From the NCBI GenBank assembly GCA_016208105.1, contig JACQYS010000023.1, positions 62,001 to 126,000 of the forward strand: a stretch of 64,000 bases of DNA. The letters are read 5' to 3'. A program made the position numbers and the translations under genes. This document shows, in pieces, positions 7,364-42,009 of the stretch (the stretch's first letter is position 1; every line of letters starts with the position of its first letter). The notes beneath the pieces are model-generated. The model saw only the letters and a list, made by a program, of their open reading frames with translations. It made no database searches and was not told the DNA's origin. The DNA is from Desulfovibrio sp. (GTDB lineage Bacteria; Desulfobacterota; Desulfovibrionia; Desulfovibrionales; Desulfovibrionaceae).

Positions 7364-8716
7364 ATGCATAATCGCCTTTTCGGTACTGATGGACTGCGCG
7401 GGCAGGTGAATATTTATCCCATGACCCCTGAAGTGGCCCTGAAGCTGGGCCTGGCCGCCGGTGCGCACTTCCGCAACGGCAAGGGCCGGCACAAGGTGGT
7501 CATCGGCAAGGATACGAGGCTTTCCGGCTACATATTCGAGTATGCCCTGGCTTCGGGGTTCTGCGCTTCGGGCATGGACGTCTTCCTGGTCGGGCCGCTG
7601 CCCACCCCGGCCATCGCCTTTCTCACCCGCTCCATGCGCGCCGACGTTGGCGTTGTCATCTCGGCCTCGCACAATCCGTACATGGACAACGGCATCAAGT
7701 TTTTCGACCGCAACGGCTTCAAGCTCCCGGACGAAACCGAGGACCAGATCTCGGCCATGGTTTTAAACCCCAAGCCCGAGTGGGAATTCCCGGCCCCGGA
7801 AGCCGTGGGCCGTGCTTTCAAGATTCAGGACAGCCCGGGCCGCTACAACGTCTATTTAAAATCCACCATCCGCTCCGAACTCCCCTTCGAAGACCTCAAG
7901 ATCGTCATGGACTGCGCCAACGGCGCGGCCTACCGCGTCTCGCCGCTGGTGTTCGAGGAGCTCGGGGCCAAGGTGATAAAGCTTGGCGTGGAACCGGACG
8001 GCACCAACATCAACCGCAAGGTGGGCTCGCTCTACCCCGAGGTGACGGCCCAGATGGTGCGCGAGACCGGCGCGGACATCGGCATCGCCCTGGACGGTGA
8101 CGCGGACCGGGTGATCGTGGTGGACGAGAAGGGCAACGTGCTCGACGGCGACCAGATCATGGCCATCTGCGCCCAGGATATGCTGGAGAAGGACAAGCTC
8201 TCGAACAATCTTCTGGTGGCCACGGTGATGAGCAACATGGCCCTTGAAGTCTTCATGAACGAGCGTGGCGGCAGGCTCTTGCGCACTCCCGTGGGCGACC
8301 GCTACGTGTTCGAGGCCATGCGGCGTGAGGGCGCCGTGCTCGGCGGCGAACAGTCCGGGCACATCATCTTCAAACGCCACGCCACCACCGGAGACGGCAC
8401 CCTGGCCGCGTTGCAGCTTATCCGCATCATGCTGGAGCGGGGCAAGCCCCTATCGGAGCTGGCCACCCTTCTCGAGCCCTATCCGCAGATTCTGATAAAC
8501 GTCCACGTGGAGCGCAAGATTCCCTTCGAGAACGCCCCAAAGGTCATGGAGGCCGTGAAGGACGCCGAAGCGACCCTGTGCGGCAAGGGAAGGGTGCTTC
8601 TTCGCTATTCCGGAACGGAATCCGTGGCGCGCATCATGGTGGAGGGCTGCGACACCGGCCAGGTCAAGGAATTGGCCGAATCTCTCGCGGTTACCTTGAA
8701 GGAGCACCTGCGCTAG
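7364..8716 (+). CDS. glmM: phosphoglucosamine mutase
   Basis: GlmM interconverts glucosamine-6-phosphate and glucosamine-1-phosphate for UDP-GlcNAc, feeding peptidoglycan and LPS. The 450-residue product starts [13 protein letters not shown]. It carries the phosphoserine loop VVISASHNP (catalytic Ser102), the magnesium loop DGDADR, the sugar loop GGEQSGH and the phosphate-binding RYSGTE near the C-terminus. A ribosome site (AGGGAGAAG) lies just upstream and only 12 bases separate it from cdaR. It is the last gene of the block; a 146-bp repeat begins two bases after its stop. Confidence 0.95.
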
Positions 8717-8718
8717 GC

Positions 8719-8864
8719 GCCTGTTGAAAAAATCCCGCTGGCTGCGTTGCCGCGCAAAAGTCAAACCTTCGCGTATGTCAAATACGCTTCAGCCTTGACT
8801 TTTTTCCGCGCCTTGCCATCTGGTTTTTTGAGCAGGCTCAAGAATATCGGATTTTTCAACGGGC
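8719..8864 (+). repeat. dispersed about 146-bp repeat with terminal inverted repeats, copy 1
   Basis: The element starts GCCTGTTGAAAAAATCC and ends with GGATTTTTCAACGGGC, which is nearly its reverse complement. Inside is a palindrome GCGTATGTCAAATACGC. A second copy lies at 41831-41975 in the opposite orientation, with about 90 percent identity over the 120-bp core by eye. No coding frame is present. It resembles a MITE-like non-autonomous element, or a mobile terminator. It follows the glmM stop by two bases. Confidence 0.8.
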
Positions 8865-9036
8865 TGCCGGGCTGGCCGTTTTCGCTGGACATTTCAGGCG
8901 ATTCTCCTAAAATTCTTTTTTGGAGAAAAATGGCGCACGGGCTGTTTCGGGGATGGACGACTCGCGTCCCCTGGGGCCGACCCCGTGACCCGCGCCAGCC
9001 AACCTGATGTGACAATAGCTTTGAAGGAGAAGGCCC

Positions 9037-28414: not shown

Positions 28415-29564
28415 ATGGCTGAAACCCGGAATTTCGAGCTGAGAAAATTCGTGGCCCCGGAATTCGTCTTCGGGGAAGGGGCTTCCAGCCTTGCGGCGCA
28501 GTACGCCGTCAACCTGGGCTCACGGCGCCCCATGCTGGTGACGGACGCCGGGCTCATAGAAGCCGGGTGGTCCAAAACGCTTCTGGACGGACTCAAAACG
28601 GCCGGGCTTGGCTGCGTGGTCTTCAGCTCCGTAACGCCCAACCCCAAGGACCATGAGATTATGGCGGGGGCGCGGATCTACCAGGACGAGGGCTGCGACG
28701 CCCTGGTTGCCCTGGGCGGAGGCAGCGTGCTGGACTGCGCCAAGGGCATCGGCATCGTCACCGCCTGTGGCGGACACATTCTCTCTTACGAGGGCGTGGA
28801 CACGATCTCCTGCCCGCTGCCTCCGCTGGTGTGCGTGCCGACCACCTCCGGAAGCTCGGCGGACGTGTCCCAGTTCGCCATCATTTCAGACACGGTGCGC
28901 AAGGTGAAGATCGCACTGGTGAGCAAGATGCTCGTTCCCGACGTCTCCCTTATCGACCCCCAATTAACCACCACCATGTCCCCCTCCCTTACGGCAGAGA
29001 CGGGCCTGGACGCCCTGACCCACGCCATCGAGGCCTATGTGTCCAACGCCAACTCGGCGGTTACGGACCTTTTCGCCCTGGAAGCCATGCGCCTTGCCCG
29101 AGGGTATCTTGTGCAGGCCGTCAGATTCCCGCAGGACATCGAGGCCCGCTCGCGCATGTGCCTGTCCAGCCTGGACGCGGGTCTGGCCTTTTCCAACGCC
29201 ATACTCGGGGCCGTGCACGGCATGGCCCACAGCCTGGGCGGCAACCTCGACCTGCCCCACGGAGAATGCAACGCCATCCTCTTGGGTCCGGTCATCGCCT
29301 TCAATTTCCCGTCCGCGCCGGAGCGTTACCGCAATGTGGCCCAAGCCATGGGATGCGCGGTCGAGGGCGTTTCCGACAGCGATGTCCTGGCGTCATTGCT
29401 TGCGACCATCAAACAGATGCGCGCCGATGTTGATTTGACCCGCAACCTGGGGGCGTTGGGAGTGACGCGCGCGGACATACCGCACCTGGCGGAAATGGCC
29501 ATGAAGGACCCGTGCCTGCTCACCAACCCCCGTCCACCCGTCCAGGCGGACATTGAAGCCATTT

Positions 29565-41817: not shown

Positions 41818-41830
41818 TGATGTTCTAACA

Positions 41831-41975
41831 GTCCGTTGCAAAAGTCTATTTCCGCAGCCTGTTCAAAAATACTGCTGGCAAGGCGCGGGAAAAAGTTAAG
41901 GCTGAAGCGTATTTGACATACGCGAAGGTTTGACTTTTGAGCGGCAACGCCGCCAGCGGGAGTTTTTCAACAGGC
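41831..41975 (-). repeat. dispersed about 146-bp repeat, copy 2 (inverted relative to copy 1)
   Basis: The reverse complement matches copy 1 at 8719-8864 over its whole length. The outer ends are GTCCGTTGCAAAAG on the plus-strand left and CTTTTTCAACAGGC-like on the right, and the palindromic core is GCGTATTTGACATACGC. It begins 13 bases after the lactate dehydrogenase stop. The word CTAAC occurs next to both ends (41825 and 41978), possibly a target duplication. Confidence 0.78.
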
Positions 41976-42009
41976 AGCTAACCCTGCTGCTCTCTTCGGG
42001 AATGCTATG

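Follow-up and report, generated by a model that had tools for sequence, protein, structure and literature searches.

Background

Repeats that resemble terminators and lie near the 3' ends of bacterial genes have precedents. The nearest in behaviour to the element described here is SPRITE of Streptococcus pneumoniae, a short repeat resembling a rho-independent terminator which, in the excerpted account (PMC3049150), is enriched near gene 3' ends and has been proposed to be co-opted as a terminator. Excerpts of a review (PMC10969869) place QMITE2 of Coxiella burnetii, a miniature transposon (MITE), mainly in 3' untranslated regions; the same excerpts describe Chunjie, a MITE of the sulfur- or metal-reducing relative Geobacter uraniireducens, as 235 bp at full length and tolerated in an operon. 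MITEAba12 shows no orientation preference in genomes (PMC6382973), and IS1272, a member of the IS1182 family of insertion sequences (IS), replaces an inverted repeat without target duplication, unlike the elements treated here (PMC5678879). The label of co-opted terminator is often attached to bacterial gene-end repeats with no evidence of how co-option came about.

The element analysed here occurs twice in a 64,000-nucleotide stretch of a Desulfovibrio sp. genome (contig JACQYS010000023.1, positions 62,001 to 126,000), hereafter the window; the genus is very likely Fundidesulfovibrio. It is a non-autonomous miniature transposon of ~150 bp and represents a real mobile family, for which no describing paper was found in the open-licence literature.

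Results

The two window copies and their ends

The original prediction described a 146-bp terminal-inverted-repeat element lying two bases behind the glmM stop and sharing about 90 percent identity with a second stretch at 41831-41975. The inverted ends, the internal palindrome and the relation between the two copies are all present, the last at 88% identity, but the true ends, the inverted CAGCCTGTTG...CAACAGGCTG, are ~2 bp further out on each side. The element therefore abuts the stop directly: the apparent GC gap is illusory because these two letters are degenerate outermost positions of the element itself, with the consensus CA. The boundaries and internal features are collected in Table 1. 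The gene upstream of copy 1 carries the PGM/PMM domains of glmM, the right-hand target copy reads CCGG, decayed from CTAG, and the element is placed between glmM and the conserved promoter-like region that serves the nucleotidyltransferase gene further downstream. That region, at 8880-8920 of the window, reads TGGACA-16-TAAAAT, and a similar promoter-like sequence occupies the same place in relatives of the genus, though the surrounding DNA diverges. The right end of copy 2 is 11 bp from the stop of a FAD/Fe-S oxidase gene.

Table 1. Features of the two element copies, in window coordinates
Feature	Position	Strand	Remarks
glmM stop codon TAG	8714..8716	+	From sequence; within left copy of 4-bp target CTAG (8713-8716)
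Copy 1, full 150 bp	8717..8866	+	Sense, flush with glmM stop
Copy 1 left terminal repeat GCGCCTGTTGAAAAA	8717..8731	+	Consensus CAGCCTGTTGAAAAA; resembles left end of IS1182-like IS
Copy 1 terminator-like core	8760..8805	+	Stem-loop GTCAAACC...GCCTTGAC (8760-8799), then TTTTTT (8800-8805)
Copy 1 internal inverted copy of left terminal repeat, TTTTTTGAGCAGGCTC	8824..8839	+	Closes ~120-nt hairpin
Copy 1 right end (..ATTTTTCAACGGGCTG)	8840..8866	+	Resembles right end of IS1182-like IS
Copy 2 target duplication CTAA, left	41825..41828
Copy 2, 149 bp	41829..41977	-	Opposite orientation
Copy 2 target duplication CTAA, right	41978..41981

Hairpin and terminator-like core

Folded as RNA, copy 1 reaches -62 kcal/mol (z = -5.3 against dinucleotide shuffles), while copy 2 is less remarkable (z = -1.5). 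Aligning 46 copies drawn from several genera yields a long hairpin in which 96% of cells are paired and 15 of 28 pairs show double changes; slid controls give double changes in 2-7 pairs, and shifting the partner by 1-3 columns lowers pairing to 30-40%. Compensatory changes in a palindrome can also come from conversion between its arms. As judged from sequence, the core has the feature expected of an intrinsic terminator, a stable stem-loop followed by a U tract behind a gene. A simple consensus terminator scan did not list this stem-loop, likely because unpaired bases interrupt the stem. T tracts flank the stem-loop on both strands (in copy 1, the opposite strand has a T4 tract after the stem), and a simple score is about level between them, with a mean of 17.3 for sense and 18.9 for antisense. 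A one-way terminator was rejected as the cause of the orientation bias reported below because both strands score alike; the core does not account for that bias.

Copy number and range

A whole-genome search of the source genome (4.18 Mb, 31 contigs) returned 18 matches, corresponding to ~15 copies, three of which carry a ~77-bp insert in the loop; a further shortened copy stands behind another gene (L064). Matches also occur in 24 of 59 relatives. Most copies measure 147-151 bp and have inverted ends, a size too small to hold a transposase gene. Two genomes from another family of the Desulfovibrionales, G043 and G051, hold ~40 copies each, closely similar to those in Desulfonatronum contigs. 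A degenerate core pattern found 43 stretches in genome_contigs, all of them in Desulfovibrionales and including Fundidesulfovibrio agrisoli; an exact 21-mer scan of genome_contigs gave no match. No match to the element was found in viral contigs and plasmids, and no family in Rfam matches it.

Several further observations concern variants and neighbours. A stretch at 29086-29128 of the window weakly resembles the element's right half (E = 0.0015) and is perhaps an old fragment. Longer variants, with ~77 bp in the loop, occur in the source genome (L238-L240) and in other Desulfovibrionales contigs (L124, L136-L138, L142, L147, L152, L154, L161). Their inserts differ in sequence between genera and have a common plan, two CAGGAC-loop hairpins, on opposite strands, around two small hairpins; from their sequence, we presume these loops to resemble CsrA-type GGA sites. 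A ZTP riboswitch (L240:1183-1266, 68.9 bits) starts ~60 bp past the right end of one long copy in the source genome, and the minus strand of the window carries a selenocysteine tRNA gene at 2550-2638 (79.4 bits).

Empty sites and target duplications

The 78 copies in the genus represent 69 distinct sites, some of them common to several species. The four bases to the left and right are identical in 21 of these 78 copies, and in 14 of the 16 youngest copies of G043, where they have a TA core; the target duplications are YTAN-like. Empty sites were found at glmM in four relatives. Two of them, G005 and G002, have an in-frame glmM TAG with no insertion and native downstream sequence directly after it; in G001 and G004 the site is also empty and the stop is TGA. 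One convergent gene pair provides two reciprocal empty sites, a copy in G001 being flush on one gene and a separate copy in G004 on the other. The proposal of a mobile element is thus borne out by the many copies, the 4-bp target duplications, the empty sites and the IS-like ends described next.

Which transposase

Both ends of the MITE match those of an IS1182-like IS on plasmid pDMC1 of Solidesulfovibrio (S. magneticus), and of remnants in the genus. The pDMC1 IS (transposase WP_012749714) has the left end CAGCGTGTTGAAAAACTCC and the right end CTTTTTGCAACGGCCTG, nearly identical to those of the MITE, and a TGTA duplication. The remnants are contig ends in G001 and G002 at which a GTGTTGAAAAA-type end, with YTAR flanks, stands beside a transposase start. 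The best NCBIfam model for the pDMC1 transposase is IS1182, at 162.5 bits against a cut-off of 270, and PF05598 and DDE_Tnp_1 exceed their cut-offs. G039 holds a clear IS1182 member (326 bits) with duplications TTAG, TTAA and TTGA. Because both ends match the IS1182-like IS, the MITE is best read, from its sequence, as moved in trans by IS1182-type transposases.

No IS1182-type transposase was found in the source genome. In G043, a single-contig genome with 16 copies of at least 98.5% identity, the youngest of the family, there was no PF01609 or PF05598 transposase and none with matching ends; the IS1182 link consequently rests on Fundidesulfovibrio and Solidesulfovibrio. Two other candidate sources were rejected: an unrelated DDE_Tnp_1 transposase of the source genome (C2:57199), whose flanks are without MITE ends, and the IS1182 members of G003, which have other ends.

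Position and orientation at stop codons

Placement was scored at 63 independent sites in the genus, orthologous sites having been merged and seven loci left out of the main counts as picked by a TAG-containing pattern; to define the gene ends, open frames and codon-position GC were used rather than a full gene finder. The original prediction had raised a 3' position bias, and it is present: at 45 of the 63 sites at most 1 bp, and mostly 0 bp, separates the left end from the in-frame stop of a same-sense coding frame upstream. Left ends 2-15 bp behind a stop number only four, copies 2-60 bp behind stops six, and right ends flush with an opposite-strand stop eight. Counted exclusively, 42 sites are flush on the left only versus five on the right only (p = 2e-8). 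The left-flush stops comprise 35 TAG, five TAA and five TGA. Opposite several of the left TGA stops, the right side reads CTAA or TTAA, so these stops look like later stop-to-stop changes. For comparison, the 32 non-coding CTAG positions of the window include five sense stops (16%), five antisense stops and 22 others. Outside the genus, under a looser criterion, 28 copies with both ends testable gave 14 flush on the left and three on the right. At least one locus pair retains the native terminator.

The bias grows with divergence

Identity to the consensus stood in for age, and targeting may have changed from one burst to the next. In G043 and G051 together, the left end is flush in 2 of 16 copies at 98.5% identity or more, 4 of 14 at 95-98%, 7 of 19 at 92-95% and 6 of 11 below 92%, the corresponding right-flush counts being 2, 0, 2 and 1. 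With the older genus sites (45 of 63) as the last class, the left-flush share rises with divergence from 12 through 29, 37 and 55 to 71%. The trend has p = 0.009 within G043 and G051, 4e-7 when the older genus copies are included and 0.02 when age is taken from nearest-neighbour identity. G043 alone gives p = 0.009 (two of its copies, L264 and L272, may be one duplicated site), and G051 alone a weak gradient (p = 0.09). Among the 16 youngest copies, all in G043, two are left-flush and two right-flush, which is no bias.

Discussion

From the lack of bias in young copies and the rising left-flush share, we infer that insertion is near random and that selection then decides which copies are retained. 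The reading that we favour, and regard as probable, is that IS1182-type transposases move the MITE, that it inserts almost at random, and that sense copies flush with a stop are selectively kept as likely 3' ends. In this mechanism, insertion would occur at YTAN sites regardless of stop codons or gene direction. An insertion on a stop would leave it intact because the duplicated target contains the stop, and a sense-flush insertion would put the stem-loop and its T tract immediately behind the gene. Copies exactly on a stop and in the sense direction would then be kept far longer than others. With the stop intact and such a stem-loop right behind the gene, the kept copies would most likely serve as predicted transcript 3' ends, whether as an intrinsic terminator, a 3' stability hairpin or both. 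This suggests that cells keep copies that work as gene endings. The earlier notion of a spreadable terminator receives indirect support from the conserved T-tract stem-loop, the exact stop placement and the enrichment with age.

The bias might instead have been there from the start, had stop codons, or some gene-end feature, been recognised in one orientation by the transposition machinery that drove older bursts. We consider this unlikely. The 0-bp spacing at most of the 45 sites, with only four of 63 at 2-15 bp, is what such targeting would produce, and a few intact NTGA-type target duplications, all at stop codons, point the same way. However, the 16 youngest G043 copies divide two and two between the ends, the share climbs gradually through the 95-98, 92-95 and below 92% classes with no switch, and the left TGA stops facing CTAA or TTAA look like later changes of the stop.

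Less probable again is survival without any host function for the hairpin, harmful insertions being purged and those at harmless gene-end sites remaining. The orientation bias of 42 versus five would then go unexplained. Copies 2-60 bp behind stops are rare (6 of 63), though insertion there should be equally harmless, and only 16% of the non-coding CTAG positions in the window are sense stops. What this account does explain is that the YTAN target includes TAG and TAA, where insertion preserves the stop, and that 3' intergenic placement is typical of harmless repeats in the excerpted literature on SPRITE and QMITE2. That the element is no transposon at all, and instead a regulatory RNA or REP-like palindrome, fixed and passed on vertically, is highly improbable: its conserved, covarying structure and the sites common to several species would fit, but 69 distinct sites among 78 copies, near-identical recent copies and the lack of a matching Rfam family speak against it, and the empty sites and target duplications already contradict it.

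If selective retention of sense, stop-flush copies is correct, its broader form would be that a mobile family seeds genomes with ready-made gene endings, random at birth, of which the sense, stop-flush copies are adopted and outlive the rest, a parasite thereby becoming the source of 3' untranslated regions throughout an order of bacteria. We judge the case for this broader form to be evenly balanced. The young-to-old series within one family makes it possible to separate insertion preference from retention, and matched filled and empty sites are available for direct measurement of the effect on transcript ends.

Comparison with known systems

The IS1182-like elements share the terminal sequences and the 4-bp duplications of the MITE but differ in being ~1.45 kb long with a transposase, and the IS showed no sequence from which the MITE's interior hairpin could derive. 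Against a REP/BIME system, in which a small palindrome is paired with a REP-associated tyrosine transposase, stand the 150-bp size, the 4-bp duplications and the DDE-type IS ends. QMITE2 belongs to another host, and flush, sense-oriented placement is not described for it in the excerpts of PMC10969869. SPRITE has no known sequence relation to the MITE, and neither a target duplication nor an empty site is demonstrable for it according to the excerpts of PMC3049150, whose account is without exact stop-codon spacing, sense bias or an age gradient.
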